64,000 nucleotides of DNA from contig NC_014623.1 of NCBI RefSeq assembly GCF_000165485.1, positions 2,623,501-2,687,500 of the forward strand. The letters run 5' to 3'. The translations under genes were made by a program, and so were the position numbers. This DNA is from Stigmatella aurantiaca DW4/3-1. GTDB lineage: Bacteria; Myxococcota; Myxococcia; Myxococcales; Myxococcaceae. The notes under the pieces are model-generated. The model searched no databases, was not told the DNA's origin, and worked only from the letters and a program-made list of their open reading frames with translations. Shown here one piece after another: positions 33,388 to 39,977 of this stretch; within the stretch, counting starts at the first letter, position 1, and the number at the start of each line of letters is the position of its first letter.

Positions 33388-35352
33388 ATGAGTCGAGATG
33401 GGGCGTCTCGCTCGGCCCTCTCCGCCTTCGTGGAGGGCCGGAGGGCGGACATCCTTCAGCGCTGGACGAGCCGGGTCCGGGGTGGGCTGGATCAGGTGCT
33501 CGTTCCCAGGAAGTTCCTGGACACGCTTCCAGAGGTCTTCGATGCGTGGCTGTCCACACTCGTGGGGTGGCGAGGCCACCTGACCCTGGATGCCTCGCTC
33601 GATGCGATCTCCGCCATTCAGAGGCATGGCCGGCAATGCTTCCAGCTGGGCCTGGGCATCGAGGAGCTGGTTCGAGACCACCAACTGCTGCGCGAGGCGG
33701 TCTTCGAGCTGATGGAGGAGACCCATCAGCGGCCGGGCTTCGCCGAGCTTCGCGTCCTGACGGGCACCCTGGATGCGACGCTGGCCGAGGCGCTGCGCCA
33801 GTACACGCAGACGCACGAACAGGCGATGCGGGTCAGCTCCGACCAGCGCGTCCAGTTGGAGCGGGAGGAGGCGCGCCGGAACCTGCGGGAGCTGGTGGAC
33901 CTGCTGCCCATCGTCTTCTGGAGCTTCGACGCCCAGGGCATCTTCACCCTGTCGAAGGGAAGTGGCCTCGCGGCGGTCGGGCTCATCTCGGATGAGGCCG
34001 TGGGGCAGTCCCTCTACACCCTCTATGGGGACCGGCCCGAGGTGCTCAGCGCCGTCGCGCGGGCGCTGAACGGGGAGCGGTTGTCGGTGGAGGTGAAGCT
34101 GGGCGAGGCGTGGTTCGACATGCGCTTCCAGCCTCAGTTCGGGCCCGATGGGCAGGTCACCGAGGTGCTGGGGCTGTCCCTGGACATCACCGAGCGGCGG
34201 CTCACCCAGGAGGCGCTCCAGAAAACCGAGATGCGCTATCAGCTGGCGACGTTGGCCACCCGGGACACCATCTGGGATTGGGACTTACAGGCCCAGAGCA
34301 TCCACTGGAGTGACAACGTCCACCGCTTGACGGGCTACCCGCCCGCGGAGATGGAGCACACCTTCGCGTGGTGGGGCCAGCGCATGCACCCCGAGGACAA
34401 GGTGGTCGTCGAGCGCACCCTCAAAGAGGCGCTCGAGGGGGAAGGGGAGCACTGGGCGTGCGAGTACCGCTTCATGCACAAGGATGGCTCCTACATCATC
34501 CTGGAGGACCGGGGTTACGTGGTGAGGGACGAGAAAGGCAAGGCCTTGCGCATGGTCGGCGCGCTGGAAGACATCACCGAGCGCCGGTTGGCGGAGGAGC
34601 GGGCCCGGCGCCGGGCCGAGTTCGAGCAGTACCTCATCGGCATCGTCAGCCATGATCTCCGCAACCCGCTCAACGCCATCACCCTGGCCGCCACCCTGCT
34701 CATCAAGCGCGATAGCACGGATGCGAACCAGCAGCAGGTGCTCAACCGCATCCTCTTCAGCGCCCGGCGTGCCAACCGCATGCTCCGGGACCTGCTGGAC
34801 TTCACCCAGGCGCGCCTGAGCGGGGGCATTCCGCTCAAGCCCCAGCCGTTGGACCTGCACGGCTTCGCGCGGCAGATCCTGGAGGAAGTGCAGTTGGCCT
34901 ACCCCGGCCGGCGGCTGCTCGTGGAGCACCGGGGGGACGGGAAGGGGGAGTGGGACGCGGACCGCCTGGCGCAGGTCATCACCAACCTGATGAACAACGC
35001 CCTCACCTACAGCCCCAACCATTGCCCGGTCCAGGTCCGCACACGCGGGGAGCGGGACAGCGTGGTGATCTCCATCCACAACGATGGGGAGCCCATCCCC
35101 GCGGAGGTGCTGCCGAAGCTCTTCCAGCCGCTCAAGCGCGGCCCTCACAAGGGGGGCAAGTCGCAAGGCTCCATTGGCCTGGGGCTCTTCATCGTGAAAC
35201 ACATCGTGGAGGCGCACGGGGGAAGCATCTCCGTGCACTCCACCGCGGCGAACGGGACGACGTTCCTGGCACGCCTGCCCCGGTATACGAGCTTCTCCTC
35301 CGAGCGGTCCTCCGGGTCCGAGGAGGCCACGCCCAACACCTCCAGGCACTGA
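33388..35352 (+). CDS. Cytoplasmic PAS sensor histidine kinase with RsbRD N-terminal domain
   Basis: 654 residues from ATG 33388 (gggagggc upstream). Residues about 1-160 resemble the RsbRD/RsbR non-haem globin-like N-terminal domain (SAFVEGRRADILQRWTS, GLGIEELVRDHQLLREAV). Two PAS domains follow (about 170-275 and 285-405). HisKA has the phosphoacceptor H422 (IVSHDLRNPLNA), and the HATPase domain shows an N-box (NLMNNALTYS) and GLGLFIVKHI. There is no membrane segment, so it senses a cytosolic signal. No response regulator is adjacent. Confidence 0.93.
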   Translation: MSRDGASRSALSAFVEGRRADILQRWTSRVRGGLDQVLVPRKFLDTLPEVFDAWLSTLVGWRGHLTLDASLDAISAIQRHGRQCFQLGLGIEELVRDHQLLREAVFELMEETHQRPGFAELRVLTGTLDATLAEALRQYTQTHEQAMRVSSDQRVQLEREEARRNLRELVDLLPIVFWSFDAQGIFTLSKGSGLAAVGLISDEAVGQSLYTLYGDRPEVLSAVARALNGERLSVEVKLGEAWFDMRFQPQFGPDGQVTEVLGLSLDITERRLTQEALQKTEMRYQLATLATRDTIWDWDLQAQSIHWSDNVHRLTGYPPAEMEHTFAWWGQRMHPEDKVVVERTLKEALEGEGEHWACEYRFMHKDGSYIILEDRGYVVRDEKGKALRMVGALEDITERRLAEERARRRAEFEQYLIGIVSHDLRNPLNAITLAATLLIKRDSTDANQQQVLNRILFSARRANRMLRDLLDFTQARLSGGIPLKPQPLDLHGFARQILEEVQLAYPGRRLLVEHRGDGKGEWDADRLAQVITNLMNNALTYSPNHCPVQVRTRGERDSVVISIHNDGEPIPAEVLPKLFQPLKRGPHKGGKSQGSIGLGLFIVKHIVEAHGGSISVHSTAANGTTFLARLPRYTSFSSERSSGSEEATPNTSRH

Positions 35353-35362
35353 GGCCCGAAGG

Positions 35363-36490
35363 TCAGCGCCCGTGGGTGGGCAGGGGAAACGGCGACACTT
35401 CCCGCGAGAGCCGTTCGGTGCGCTCCAGCAGCTTCTGGAAGCGAGGTGTTCCATTGCGTGCGTCGAACCGCGCCGCGATGTCCCGGGCCTGGGCCTCCAC
35501 CCAGCCGTGCAGGGCGTGCGTCTCATAGGAGCCCTGGGCCTGGTGGAGCGCGAACGCCTTCGGCAAGCGCAGGCTGACCGTCTCCCGGTCCTCGTCGCGC
35601 AGGCGGGAGAGCAGGAAGCCCGCCGCGGCGAGGAAGGTGAAGCGGTCGCGGTGGCTGGCGTGATCCAACGCCCACCCCAGGTGCCGCTCGAACAGCGCCA
35701 GCCCTTGGGCGAGGTTGTGGGTGAGCACCAGGAACTCGATGTGCTCACCCACCGTGGCCAGGAAGTCCCGGTTGCGGTGGATGAGGGAATAGCCGATCTG
35801 GTGGTAGCGCAGTGCCTCCTCCACCTCGCCGAGCTTGAACAGCGGATAGAGGAGGCTGCCGTAGGTGAGGTGGGGAATCTCCGCGCACCCGCTGCGGCCC
35901 AGGAGGATGGGCGCGGCCTTCTGGTGGGCCAGCCGGTACTCGCCCCGGTCGATGTGGTAGTCGATCTCGTCATCGAGATCACACGCGGGGCAGTCGGTCA
36001 GATGATCTCTGGGCGCCACCACCCACTGGGCCCAGTAGGCCTCGGCCTCGGCCTCGTCGCCCATGTCCCGCGCGGTCTGGTAGCGCAGCTTGAGCACCGC
36101 CCGCTTGCCCGCGTCCACCCGGGCGAAGGTCTCCTCGATGTCGGCCAGCGCCTCCTGGATCTTCTTGCGGCTGATGTGAGGGAACTCGTCCAGGCGGCCC
36201 ACCACCCACTTCTGTTTCCACAGCAGTGGGTGGGCATCGAAGCGGTCCGGGTTCTTTTTCTGCTGCGCCCGGCACCAGGCGAAGGCCACCAGGGCCTTGT
36301 CGGGGTAGCCGCCGAAGGTGGCGGCATCGATGAGCTCGTCCCGCACCTGGAAGGCGAGGGCCAGGTCTCCATGGACCTCGGCCATCCGCGCCGCTTCTTC
36401 CAGGGTCATCACCTTGGCCTCGCCGGGCCGCTGGCGGGCGGCGCGCGCCTGGAGTTGCTCGACCTGGGTGCGCCAGTCCTGGGCGGTCAA
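35363..36490 (-). CDS. Helical repeat (TPR-like) protein coupled to an HSP90-like gene
   Basis: 375 residues, all-alpha, with TPR-like spacing (EEAARMAEVHGDLALAFQVR, ALVAFAWCRAQQKKN, GEVEEALRYHQIGYSLI, LAQGLALFERHLGWAL). A CxxC pair (CPACDLDDE) near residue 165 is a possible metal or redox site. The TTG start at 36490 overlaps the HSP90-like stop (TTGA), so the two are translationally coupled. TPR proteins are classic HSP90 partners, which makes a co-chaperone role attractive, but this protein may simply be a cargo-binding scaffold. Confidence 0.8.
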   Translation of the reverse strand: MTAQDWRTQVEQLQARAARQRPGEAKVMTLEEAARMAEVHGDLALAFQVRDELIDAATFGGYPDKALVAFAWCRAQQKKNPDRFDAHPLLWKQKWVVGRLDEFPHISRKKIQEALADIEETFARVDAGKRAVLKLRYQTARDMGDEAEAEAYWAQWVVAPRDHLTDCPACDLDDEIDYHIDRGEYRLAHQKAAPILLGRSGCAEIPHLTYGSLLYPLFKLGEVEEALRYHQIGYSLIHRNRDFLATVGEHIEFLVLTHNLAQGLALFERHLGWALDHASHRDRFTFLAAAGFLLSRLRDEDRETVSLRLPKAFALHQAQGSYETHALHGWVEAQARDIAARFDARNGTPRFQKLLERTERLSREVSPFPLPTHGR

Positions 36491-38325
36491 TGCATGCCTC
36501 CCCGGTCCGGGGGTTCTTCCCCGCCCTCCAGCCTCGAGGCGATGAGCCCCAGCAGGCCCTGGTTGAGCAGCAGCATCTCCCGGGCATTCAGCGGCCGGTG
36601 GCCGAGCAGCAGGGCCTGCACGTACAACATCTCCACCGACAGCTTTATCAGGTGGGGGTCCGTCACCGCCGCGAGCCTGCGCACCACGGGGTTGTGGAAG
36701 TTGAAGGTCAGCAGGGGTTGCTCGTTCCCGGAGGCGCCGGAGACCACGCCCTCCAGCATGGAGGCGTACAGGTCATCGCTCTCCTCGCGGGCCCGCTCCG
36801 CGTCCCGGCGGAAGGCGTTGCCCGTGTCCGAGCTGTAGAGGGTGGGGACTTCCTTGGGGCGGAACTTCTTCACCACCACGCCGCAGCCGAACGGCTGGAG
36901 CACCTCCTCGGCCCGCTTGCGCAGCGGGAAGACGGCCTCCCGCTCATCCAGCGTCAGCTCGTCGAAGCTCTGCGGCAGGTCCGAGGCGGAGAAGCGCTCC
37001 ACCTGCGCGTCCTGGAAGACGCGAGGCAGCTTCTCCAGCAAGTCCGTGTCGTAGACATACGCGGCGTTCAGCACGCACAGACCCTGGGCGGCCGCCACCC
37101 GGGACACCTGCCGGAACTCATCCAGGGAGGAGACGTAGCGCACCTGGGAGGAGGTCTGCCGGTAGTCCGCCAGCGTCATCGCCCCCAGGGAGGTCTCGAA
37201 GGGCAGCCAGCCGATGATGAGCCGGTAGAAGTCATCGTCATCCAGGGCGAGGGCCTTCATGGACAGGGCGTGCAATTGGATGAGCCCCTGGAGGGCGCGG
37301 GGATCGTCCTTGGCCAGCTCCACCAGGTAGCGCCGCAGGGCCTGGCCCAGGGCCGTGCGGGCGCGCGTCAGGGTGTCGTTCTCGTAGAAGGACTCGCGGC
37401 TGGCGGTGGGGCGCAGATCATTGGCGTTCACCACGCACTTCACGAAGAAGGCCCACTCGGGCAGCAGGTTCTCCGCGCTCTCGGACAAGAGCATGTTCTT
37501 CAGGTACACGCGGTGCTTCTGCTTGGCGTTGTAGTGGGGGCTGAAGGGCAGCACGAAGGCCACGCCCTCCACGTCTCCGGCCTCGGACTTCAGCGGGATG
37601 CAGTCGATGAAGGTCATCCCGAAGACGTCGCGCCCATAGGCGAGCAGCGCCGCCCGCCGCTCCGAGGCGCTGCCGTAGGTGCGGCGCCAGGGAGCCCCCT
37701 CGGTGTTGATGCGCCCGCTGTAGCCCCCCGCCGTCAGGTGGATGGGAAAGGGCAGCAGCCCGCCATAGTGGAGGGCGAGCTCCCGGACGCGCTGGGGGGT
37801 GAAGAGGCTGGCCGCATCCGGCCTCGCCACCAGGAACACCTGGGTGCCCGGCCGCTCGAGCGGGTGTCCAGAGGGCCGCACGGTGTAGATCCCGTCGTGC
37901 CGCCCCCGCCATTCCATGGTGGGCGAGCCGCCCTGGGCGGAGCGCGTCACCACGAGCACCTCGTCACACACCATGAAACAGGACAGCAGCCCGATGCCGA
38001 ACTGGCCAATGAAGTCGCCCCGCCGCTCGGCCAGGACTTCCCGCTTGGAACTCTCGCCGATGGTGGCCAGGAAGCGGTGGATCTCCTCCTCCGTCAGCCC
38101 GATGCCGTCATCGCTGAAGAGCAGGGTGGGGGGACCTCCATCTTGTTTCTCGATGAGTTCAATCCGGATGCTGCCTTCATGGCCGGGCTCGAGGTGTTGA
38201 CGGGCCCGGATGGCGTCGGTGGCGTTCTGGAGTAACTCCCGGATGTAGACGTCCGGCGAGCTGTAGAGGTGGTGGGACAGGAGGTCGATGACCCCGCGGA
38301 GGTTGATTTGGAATCGGTGGTCCAC
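36487..38325 (-). CDS. HSP90-like (HtpG-related) chaperone
   Basis: 612 residues from GTG 38325. The N-terminal GHKL ATPase domain carries YIRELLQNATDAI (E and N for ATP and Mg), LLFSDDGIGLTEEEI and FIGQFGIGLLSCFMV. The middle domain has the catalytic arginine segment RPTASRESFYENDTL. A dimerisation-type C-terminus with variable sequence follows. It is related to the HSP90-family proteins of actinobacteria rather than a canonical HtpG (about 620-650 residues). It is the first gene of a pair with a TPR-like protein. The longer N-terminal extension in frame is unlike HSP90 and is rejected. Confidence 0.9.
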   Translation of the reverse strand: MDHRFQINLRGVIDLLSHHLYSSPDVYIRELLQNATDAIRARQHLEPGHEGSIRIELIEKQDGGPPTLLFSDDGIGLTEEEIHRFLATIGESSKREVLAERRGDFIGQFGIGLLSCFMVCDEVLVVTRSAQGGSPTMEWRGRHDGIYTVRPSGHPLERPGTQVFLVARPDAASLFTPQRVRELALHYGGLLPFPIHLTAGGYSGRINTEGAPWRRTYGSASERRAALLAYGRDVFGMTFIDCIPLKSEAGDVEGVAFVLPFSPHYNAKQKHRVYLKNMLLSESAENLLPEWAFFVKCVVNANDLRPTASRESFYENDTLTRARTALGQALRRYLVELAKDDPRALQGLIQLHALSMKALALDDDDFYRLIIGWLPFETSLGAMTLADYRQTSSQVRYVSSLDEFRQVSRVAAAQGLCVLNAAYVYDTDLLEKLPRVFQDAQVERFSASDLPQSFDELTLDEREAVFPLRKRAEEVLQPFGCGVVVKKFRPKEVPTLYSSDTGNAFRRDAERAREESDDLYASMLEGVVSGASGNEQPLLTFNFHNPVVRRLAAVTDPHLIKLSVEMLYVQALLLGHRPLNAREMLLLNQGLLGLIASRLEGGEEPPDRGGMH

Positions 38326-38525
38326 GCTCGCCCAAAGCGTAGCGCACCCCTTGCCCTGCCAGGGGCGGGAAGGTGGCGGGTAAGACAGGGACCTACGACG
38401 CGGCTCCGCCCGCGCTCGGTTGTCTAACCCGCATTCCCCGATAGACGAGGTTGTCATTCAGAATGAAGGTGGGGTATTCCCCATGCTGACGCGGAGCGTT
38501 GCGCGTCCTCGGGTGGACTACGGTC

Positions 38526-39977
38526 ATGGATTTCGGCAAGGCGGGATGGCTCTCCTCGATCATTGAGGAGGCGGTAGCGGCACATCCGCATGGGTCGCCC
38601 TCCGCGCCGTCCCCGGGAACTCCGGACACCCGCTCTGGGCGGGCGCGGGCGCGGGCCTACCTGCGGCAATCCCTCCGGGTCAACGGCCTGCTCCAGGGGC
38701 CTTCGCTCGAGGACAAGGCGCCCAGCGCAGAGGCGGAGCGTCCCGCGGAGATGCGGTTGTTCCTGGCGCTGGTGCGCTCGTTGGCGCAGATGGGGCTGGA
38801 CATCGCGCAGCTGGCCGTCGCCCCCGAGGGCCCGCGCGCGGAGCAGCTCTTCGTGCTGTTCGCGGTGTTCTCCGGCGAGTTGGACGTGGCCGCGGCCCTG
38901 GACGCGAAGATCCAGCACCACCACGAGGTGCCCAAGCGCCTGCACGGGAAGGTGGAGAGCGCGCTGGCGCGGCGCGCCCTGTCCCTGGCGGGAGATCCTG
39001 TCTATGGGCTGGTGCTCCACAATGGGGCGCTGTACGCGGATGCGCAGCTCTTTGGACGGCAGGCCATCGCCTACTTCTCGCGAGGCCAGCTTCAGCGCCC
39101 GGCGACGCAGCGGCGCATCGACTTCGTGGCGCGGCAGAAGGCGATCCTGGTGGAGGTGCTGGCGGGCCTTGCCGTCGCGGACCACAAGCCGAGCTATGCC
39201 TCGCGCCGCGCCATCCTCCGGCAGGTGGAAGGCTTGAGGTTGCCGGAGGCCATCGAGGCGGAGCTGCGCGGCGTGGTGAAGAAGGCGTTCGAGCACCCGG
39301 TGGACGTGCGGACGCTGGTGGCCGGTGTCCGCAGCCAGGACACGCGTCACTTCTTGCTGGAGCAGGCGCTGCTGGCCTCGCTGGTGGATGGGCAGCGCTC
39401 CCAGGGCGAGCGCGGCTTCATCCGGGAGCTGGCGGCCGCCTTGGGCGTGCCGGAGGCCGAGCTCCACCGGTTGGAGCTGGAGACGGTCGGTTTCTATGCC
39501 CGCAACCGCTCGATGGTGGACGTGTTCATCGAGCCGACCGCCGCGAGCATCCTGGGCGAGGACTTCATCCTCCGGATGCAGGCGGTGCTGGAGAAGAACT
39601 TCCAGGCCCTCATGCAGGAGGCACGGGAGACGGGCGACCTGGCCCTGCTGCTGGCCAAGGCGGTCCGGGGGCAGAAGCTGACGCCGGACGAGCGCCGGCG
39701 GATGCGGGAGCAGCTCATCGACGTGGCCAAGGTGATCCCCGCGCTGGCCATCTTCGCCGCGCCGGGAGGTGTGCTGCTGCTGCTGGCCGTGGCCAAGGTG
39801 CTGCACATCAACCTGTTGCCCAGCGCCTTCCAGGCGGTGGCCGTGCCGGCCAGTCAGCCCGCCGCGGCGGTTGGGGGCACGGCCAGCGAGCCTTCCCCGG
39901 CGAAGGTCTCGGCCCTGGCGCTGCCTCGGGAGGAGGAAGCACTCGAGGCTCCCTCCCAGAGCAGGCGTTGTGGGTGA
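38526..39977 (+). CDS. TerB-like / LETM1-like domain protein
   Basis: 483 residues from ATG 38526. Near residue 270-330 there is a helical TerB-like segment (FLLEQALLASLVDGQRSQGE, then ELAAALGVPEAELHRLELE). Near 380-425 there is a LETM1-type stretch (GQKLTPDERRRMREQLIDVA, PALAIFAAPGGVLLLLAVAK) with one membrane helix. LETM1 proteins are ion-exchange factors in mitochondria; bacterial LETM1-related proteins have been linked to envelope or biofilm functions. The pairing of TerB and LETM1 suggests metal or ion homeostasis (inference). The N-terminal 200 residues are unassigned. Confidence 0.8.
   Translation: MDFGKAGWLSSIIEEAVAAHPHGSPSAPSPGTPDTRSGRARARAYLRQSLRVNGLLQGPSLEDKAPSAEAERPAEMRLFLALVRSLAQMGLDIAQLAVAPEGPRAEQLFVLFAVFSGELDVAAALDAKIQHHHEVPKRLHGKVESALARRALSLAGDPVYGLVLHNGALYADAQLFGRQAIAYFSRGQLQRPATQRRIDFVARQKAILVEVLAGLAVADHKPSYASRRAILRQVEGLRLPEAIEAELRGVVKKAFEHPVDVRTLVAGVRSQDTRHFLLEQALLASLVDGQRSQGERGFIRELAAALGVPEAELHRLELETVGFYARNRSMVDVFIEPTAASILGEDFILRMQAVLEKNFQALMQEARETGDLALLLAKAVRGQKLTPDERRRMREQLIDVAKVIPALAIFAAPGGVLLLLAVAKVLHINLLPSAFQAVAVPASQPAAAVGGTASEPSPAKVSALALPREEEALEAPSQSRRCG

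Follow-up and report, generated by a model that had tools for sequence, protein, structure and literature searches.

A non-HtpG HSP90 paralogue of Stigmatella aurantiaca and a predicted TPR-type solenoid protein form a gene pair conserved in eight bacterial phyla

In eukaryotes, Hsp90 works with tetratricopeptide repeat (TPR) co-chaperones such as Hop/Sti1, FKBP51/52 and PP5, and the contact needs a C-terminal EEVD sequence. For bacteria, a passage of one study states that no obligate Hsp90 co-chaperones had been identified as of 2013; the same passage describes the paralogue groups Hsp90A, Hsp90B and Hsp90C, of which the analysis there covers A alone and leaves out B and C (PMC3708813). Here we analyze a 64,000-nucleotide stretch of the Stigmatella aurantiaca DW4/3-1 genome (NC_014623.1, positions 2,623,501 to 2,687,500; hereafter the window), in which a gene for an HSP90-family ATPase other than HtpG is followed by a gene for a helical-repeat protein, referred to below as the partner. 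The two genes recur side by side across eight phyla.

Several described systems resemble this locus in part. The HSP90 of the window is a full-length member of the family modeled as NF010683/PRK14083, a model that describes the HSP90 alone and leaves the partner outside it. With HtpG it shares the domain order and the catalytic residues, but it is only 25% identical to Escherichia coli HtpG and scores far under the HtpG cut-off. The likeness to the eukaryotic TPR co-chaperones would lie, if binding is confirmed, in an Hsp90 working with a TPR protein; the difference is that this type of HSP90 lacks EEVD and that its solenoid carries a conserved set of cysteines. TPR receptors of the RRNPP class use an N-terminal helix-turn-helix (NprR) or a helical bundle (Rap) for output; no helix-turn-helix was found in the window partner by Pfam or NCBIfam, and the fold resemblance spans the solenoid. 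The Listeria locus lmo0942-lmo0941-lmo0940 has an HSP90-family gene beside fri and then two partner-family genes, named here from gene order, where the window has one; lmo0942 adjoins fri (PMC3534079) and is listed among heat-shock genes (PMC10393277), and lmo0941 is a hypothetical protein of unknown function (PMC6901971). In Pseudomonas, an HSP90-like gene is likewise followed by a TPR-type protein with cysteine motifs, presumably PA1069, which a passing remark describes as apparently operonic with an Hsp90 gene (PMC4053335), but this type forms a separate group by score. No paper treating the present pair as a chaperone-partner system was found in the PMC literature, a search that has subscription papers outside its scope and is not proof of absence.

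A profile of the HSP90 was scanned against one genome per species, and the best 80 loci of at least 586 candidates encoding a relative were analyzed; because the scan was seeded with the HSP90 alone, the test is independent of the partner. The partner was present at 75 of the 80 loci, downstream on the same strand at 74 of them and on the opposite strand at the other (L102). By record title the 74 same-strand loci span eight phyla and comprise 33 actinomycetes, 15 Bacillota, 11 Planctomycetota, nine Myxococcota, two Acidobacteriota, and one each of a deltaproteobacterium, Desulfobacterales, Deinococcales and Undibacterium. This recurrence is more than chance. An earlier note on this DNA had proposed checking whether the pair is conserved at actinobacterial and myxobacterial HSP90-like loci and had named two refutations, a TPR-like gene that is not conserved next to HSP90-like genes and the lack of a predicted interface; the scan supports conservation of the pair and so answers the first of these. 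The pairing is stronger and wider than that note guessed, and is found also in Bacillota, Planctomycetota, Acidobacteriota, Deinococcales, Desulfobacterales and one Undibacterium.

At the window locus the two genes have four bases in common, TTGA, which combine the stop codon of the HSP90 gene (TGA, 36489-36487) with the start codon of the partner gene (TTG, 36490-36488); both minus-strand reading frames lie where the earlier note placed them, and the overlap it reported is real. A longer in-frame reading of the HSP90 gene starts from an ATG at 38457 rather than the GTG at 38325. When possible, rather than mapped, start codons were classified at the 75 loci with a partner, a 4-base overlap was possible in 42 (20 ATGA, 20 GTGA and two TTGA), and the rest comprised eight 1-base overlaps, five other short overlaps, 15 starts 0-30 bases downstream, two at 31-150 bases, two further away or unclear, and the one on the opposite strand. 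The sequences thus lend support to the proposed translational coupling, and coupled expression argues for a shared function, although it does not itself separate a co-chaperone from a dedicated client. Of the 30 largest open reading frame (ORF) groups listed from the 80 loci, only the pair and its antisense frames kept a fixed position across the phyla, and no third gene did so; the next groups came from myxobacteria or from actinomycetes related to one another, one of the latter groups also including a Deinococcales member, and one group of seven loci mixed phyla at varied places.

Genomes were also sampled phylum by phylum. An HSP90-family gene over the cut-off was present in 65 of 195 Myxococcota genomes, with the partner directly 3' in 64 of these and the remaining one at a contig end. 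The Actinomycetota sample comprised 246 genomes, chosen around and including a centre that already had the pair. When coordinates were compared by eye, the partner was adjacent to all 10 HSP90-family copies (E up to 1e-100), which lie in eight genomes, the centre contributing one copy; the 12 partner copies, in 10 of the 246 genomes, leave two orphans. In Bacillota the partner was found in four of 239 genomes, again including the centre, and an HSP90 was adjacent in the three non-centre genomes, which are those that the HSP90 search covered, the other 235 lying outside it. The single one of 299 sampled Pseudomonadota genomes that exceeded the HSP90 cut-off was the centre. Plasmid-labelled records hold further pairs from Streptomyces, Listeria and Paenibacillus, and one from Actinomyces oris holds a partner gene without an HSP90. 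The module is constant as a pair and patchy in its distribution.

The five scan loci without a partner divide into two that are cut by a contig end (L079 and L120) and three in which the genes are non-adjacent (L103, L116 and L119). The genomes of the latter three encode the partner elsewhere, in G701 as two pieces on two contigs, and L103's genome, the only one of the three searched for a second HSP90 copy, has a single HSP90-family gene, that of L103 itself; the genome of L120 also encodes a partner. In the planctomycete loci L116 and L119 a saccharopine-dehydrogenase-like NAD-binding ORF follows the HSP90 gene (L116:8539-9870 and L119:8457-9914). Another planctomycete locus, L105 (5870-9886), carries a broken partner downstream of its HSP90 gene as well as, on the upstream side, fragments of a second copy, and at L093 the partner lies about 800 bases from the HSP90 gene. 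Two partner copies stand close together at L112:8865-11050, L128:8779-12554, L064:9803-11771 and G703:C127:504-2671, those in L064, L112 and L128 being downstream of the HSP90 gene. In the opposite direction, four of 68 partner places in Myxococcota lack a neighboring HSP90, namely one at a contig start (G086), one in G060 and, in G017 and G092, two matches that are short and weak. Co-occurrence is one-sided in the genomes analyzed, with the HSP90 hardly ever found without the partner and the partner sometimes found alone.

The HSP90 of the window matches NF010683 ('HSP90 family protein') over residues 1-600 with 797.6 bits (cut-off 455), and the HtpG model NF003555 with 193.5 bits, under the cut-off of 371. 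By these scores, which rather than a tree separate the HSP90 groups here, it is a paralogue distinct from HtpG. The same 10.26-Mb genome encodes a separate HtpG that shares 50% identity with the E. coli protein, at a locus (L001, 4.2 kb) that contains no match to the partner family. Seven of the 23 whole genomes reached through the loci have this HSP90 as their only NF010683 match (E 0.001), and it is therefore independent of the presence of HtpG. Residues E34, N38, D80, G82, G84, G121-x-F-G124-x-G126 and R336 of E. coli HtpG are all conserved in the window protein, as E30, N34, D72, G74, G76, the GQFGIG lid and R310; we take these to be the catalytic glutamate, the Mg-binding asparagine, the adenine-binding aspartate, the glycine-rich lid and the middle-domain arginine, and the catalytic residues so assigned match in both HtpGs, from E. 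coli and from the same genome. The ATPase motifs that had been called intact are thus conserved in alignment, and the protein is a predicted ATPase that has the residues for ATP hydrolysis.

The window partner gave no match above cut-off to Pfam or NCBIfam, including to any TPR model, and no sequence search of the window protein therefore underlies its description as TPR-like; five relatives scanned likewise had no NCBIfam match over cut-off. Weak TPR matches do occur among relatives (TPR_12 in 21 of 96 aligned, best E 2e-6), and the C-terminal extension of a Streptomyces member exceeds the TPR_12 cut-off (42.1 vs 30.1 bits). A structure model of the partner built with 88 sequences is an all-helical solenoid with a mean predicted local distance difference test score (pLDDT) of 96.3 and a predicted template modeling score (pTM) of 0.93, which matches at full length chain O of APC/C (Z 23.4, 328 residues, root-mean-square deviation (rmsd) 5.1), MalT domain III (Z 22.1, 323 residues, rmsd 5.3) and NprR (Z 18.7, 304 residues, rmsd 4.5). 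The partner is accordingly predicted to be a TPR-type solenoid, and it is this fold, not a sequence match, that upholds the helical-repeat protein of the earlier note; such matches show fold, not function. Sequence searches of solved structures with the partner returned mostly repeat and designed proteins. None of the 50 structure matches that Foldseek or VIA listed had a title recognizable as an Hsp90 co-chaperone, an absence that is not evidence, and P58IPK, titled a co-chaperone, was among the Foldseek matches listed (E 0.0075-0.014).

In a set of 66 partner members under 80% identity, three cysteines (CxxC...C; Cys167, Cys170 and Cys202) are each missing from a single member, the same Nocardia protein, which keeps FDxRN. 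W91, K94, P206 and FDxRN are the other highly conserved positions, and the CxxC...C sits, in the model, at the start of a predicted helix. The 65 members with three cysteines include the orphan partners of G060 and Actinomyces oris; those of G626 and G659 keep a CxxC and have cysteines downstream of it, and the G626 copy is without an exact FDxRN. Measured from match start to next stop, with broken copies included, the partners of actinomycetes are longer, with a median of 896 amino acids (31 complete) vs 364 in the 38 others. No effector or enzyme domain was found in the partner proteins scanned by Pfam and NCBIfam.

The window HSP90 ends in GGMH, and an EEVD tail was found in none of 75 HSP90 C-termini, which vary. 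A docking tail of the kind used by eukaryotic TPR co-chaperones is thus absent, and the partner would therefore have to dock on another surface. When the HSP90 and partner of a Paenibacillus pair were modeled as a linked single chain, read through the stop codon, the mean pLDDT was 89.4 and the pTM 0.66, with a disordered joint; each half is therefore predicted to fold, while their relative placement is not fixed, so that the model neither demonstrates nor rules out an interface.

On our best reading, this bacterial HSP90 has a protein dedicated to it, either as co-chaperone or adaptor or as client, a function that we infer. That the two genes make up a self-contained chaperone module, with the partner as dedicated co-chaperone or client adaptor, we consider an evenly balanced prospect. 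Under it, the first gene would supply an HSP90 paralogue that differs from HtpG and retains the ATP-hydrolysis residues, and the second a TPR solenoid that would serve this HSP90 in that role, docking on a surface other than an EEVD tail. Coupled translation would keep the two in proportion, and the CxxC...C of the partner would most simply be a metal-bound or redox-responsive site, which could stabilize or switch the adaptor. Physical binding, the adaptor role and the metal or redox role are all steps that we infer; a co-chaperone is plausible and unproven, and its eukaryotic form, with EEVD docking, is not what is found here. Several observations weigh against this module. The linked model contains one HSP90 protomer and does not establish an interface; only three partner cysteines are near-invariant, with no invariant fourth ligand. 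The genome of L079 (G704) has no partner match at all, for which the contig break would be a sufficient though unproven reason, and three genomes (G060, G626 and G659) have the partner without this HSP90 family, G060 having no NF010683 match (E 0.001), G659 one in the HtpG score range and G626 a weak partial one. Two of 14 control genomes, Deinobacterium chartae and Corynebacterium glutamicum, also exceeded the HSP90 cut-off, their neighborhoods lying outside the partner check. Agreement between the HSP90 and partner distance matrices (56 pairs, mirror-tree r 0.877, with no more than 0.151 in 1000 permutations) could arise from common descent alone and so counts for little. The absence of any CIRCE heat-shock element from the window also counts on this side, and is uninformative on the regulation of the pair.

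The one-sided co-occurrence fits an obligate co-chaperone or adaptor and also fits a chaperone dedicated to one client, in which case the HSP90 would fold or hold the downstream TPR protein, and the latter would do the real work, for example as sensor or scaffold. An HSP90 hardly ever without the TPR gene, with the TPR gene alone in a few genomes, is what would be expected of a chaperone that is useless without its client, some clients having gained independence; the elaboration of the TPR protein by lineage, with its much longer actinomycete forms, and the CxxC pair kept in the four orphans checked point the same way. The partner alone, however, is predicted to be very well ordered, although this is silent on folding in the cell, and the partners scanned showed no effector or enzyme domain; we regard a dedicated client as possible but doubtful. 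The full-length matches to MalT domain III and NprR, besides that to APC/C chain O, would suit a TPR receptor that senses a ligand, in the manner of MalT, Rap or NprR, and depends on HSP90 for its active state, as steroid receptors do in animals. TPR solenoids match one another widely, so that the fold does not show function, and neither Pfam nor NCBIfam found a DNA-binding or response-regulator domain in the window partner, which leaves such a receptor unlikely.

The linked model, in which no interface is established, would also be compatible with two merely co-transcribed stress genes without direct interaction, but gene order and overlap are conserved in eight phyla with no other common neighbor found, and both genes co-occur in the three genomes where they are non-adjacent, so that we give this explanation very little credence. 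Still more improbable is a part in an anti-phage or stress-suicide system. It is suggested by a cyanobacterial plasmid (L067) in which a distant HSP90-like protein has a possible TIR domain (E 0.001, below the Pfam cut-off) with TIR and TPR genes nearby, and by the ATPase domain of the window HSP90 (residues 10-128), which resembles the N-terminal part of the TmtA models of PADLOC (best E 3.6e-13). This resemblance is local, however, covering about 100 of 1302 model positions as a shared ATPase fold would, the best PADLOC match of the partner is JetA at E 0.0099, and general scans, none aimed at defence-island context, revealed neither an effector domain in the pair nor a third gene at a constant position.

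Set against the stated lack of obligate bacterial Hsp90 co-chaperones in the passage cited above (PMC3708813), a pair conserved in eight phyla is a concrete, testable candidate. It would show whether Hsp90 came to work with solenoid proteins in bacteria independently of eukaryotes. It also links a group of HSP90s other than HtpG to a family of partners, groups B and C being those set aside in that passage.

Other HSP90-like proteins also have TPR neighbors. Three from Myxococcota (L075, L076 and L077) score 261-265 bits with the window HSP90 family profile, vs 193-199 for two HtpGs, and in L076 and L077 the HSP90-like gene is followed by one for a weak-TPR protein with a CPQSxC...WPCxxC motif. 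This second type of pair is found in myxobacteria, in Xanthomonas vasicola and Pseudomonas aeruginosa records, and in one further proteobacterium, the only such case among the 299 Pseudomonadota genomes (G798); the pairs lie at L076:6704-11257, L077:1-3101, L175:5102-9325, L176:5054-9295 and L188:1344-5729, and L176 is presumably the PA1068-PA1069 locus, judging from its neighbors. Where scored, the HSP90-like members of the second group reach 263-284 bits with NF010683, under its cut-off of 455, and their partners, 764-774 amino acids where complete, carry CPQSxC...WxCxxC. A Nonomuraea relative of the second partner is missing most of the cysteines, and no HSP90-like gene was found within the surrounding 13-kb stretch. 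In a third arrangement, a single case (G756, L187:2629-5812), a 672-residue HSP90-like protein (289 bits) is followed after one base by the gene for a 387-residue TPR protein with a GCPLSC motif. Alignment of the window partner family with the second partner by hhalign superimposes the cysteine pairs with a probability of 48.5% and an E of 1.8e-4 (16.8% with two sequences), which is suggestive; with the third partner the probability is 0.9%, which leaves that relationship unsupported, and common ancestry of the three groups' partners is not claimed. We put forward only tentatively, and with more doubt than conviction, that bacteria have their own Hsp90-co-chaperone systems independent of EEVD-TPR contacts, in which at least three non-HtpG groups would each be hard-wired to a cysteine-pair TPR solenoid acting as an obligate metal- or redox-sensitive adaptor. 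The HSP90-like gene of L067 (L067:5932-10795), whose possible TIR domain is C-terminal (CAP12-PCTIR_TIR), is preceded by a TIR gene and followed by a TPR gene.

Table 1 Features of the HSP90-partner locus in the window (positions counted from the first base of the window).
Feature	Position	Strand	Details
HSP90-family ATPase (NF010683/PRK14083 type, not HtpG)	36487..38325	minus	GTG start, 612 amino acids
Helical-repeat (predicted TPR-solenoid) partner	35363..36490	minus	TTG start, 375 amino acids
4-base stop/start overlap TTGA (putative translational coupling)	36487..36490	minus	
Partner Cys167 codon, first Cys of DCxAC motif	35990..35992	minus	65/66 non-redundant members
Partner Cys170 codon	35981..35983	minus	65/66
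Partner Cys202 codon	35885..35887	minus	65/66
Partner FDARN motif, residues 342-346, consensus FDxRN	35453..35467	minus	D343 0.95, R345 0.97, N346 0.98 of 66
HSP90 Glu30, aligns with E. coli HtpG Glu34 (catalytic base)	38236..38238	minus	alignment
HSP90 Arg310, aligns with E. coli HtpG Arg336	37396..37398	minus	alignment

No sigma-70-like promoter site was found in 34900-38700, which is uninformative on the regulation of the pair. Upstream of the HSP90 gene lies a divergent gene (38499-39977) with a TerB-like product that resembles an LETM1-related biofilm protein at 80.6 bits, under the cut-off of 250; an ORF group upstream of the HSP90 gene in Corallococcus and Archangium loci is possibly related to it. 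The orphan partner of G060, at G060:C7:70546-71652 (L072), comes from the window's own family, from a genome 99% complete, and has all three cysteines. Matches were also seen in five unannotated phage-collection records, one labelled 'Bacteriophage sp.' and four labelled Listeria phage, and the latter may be bacterial fragments.

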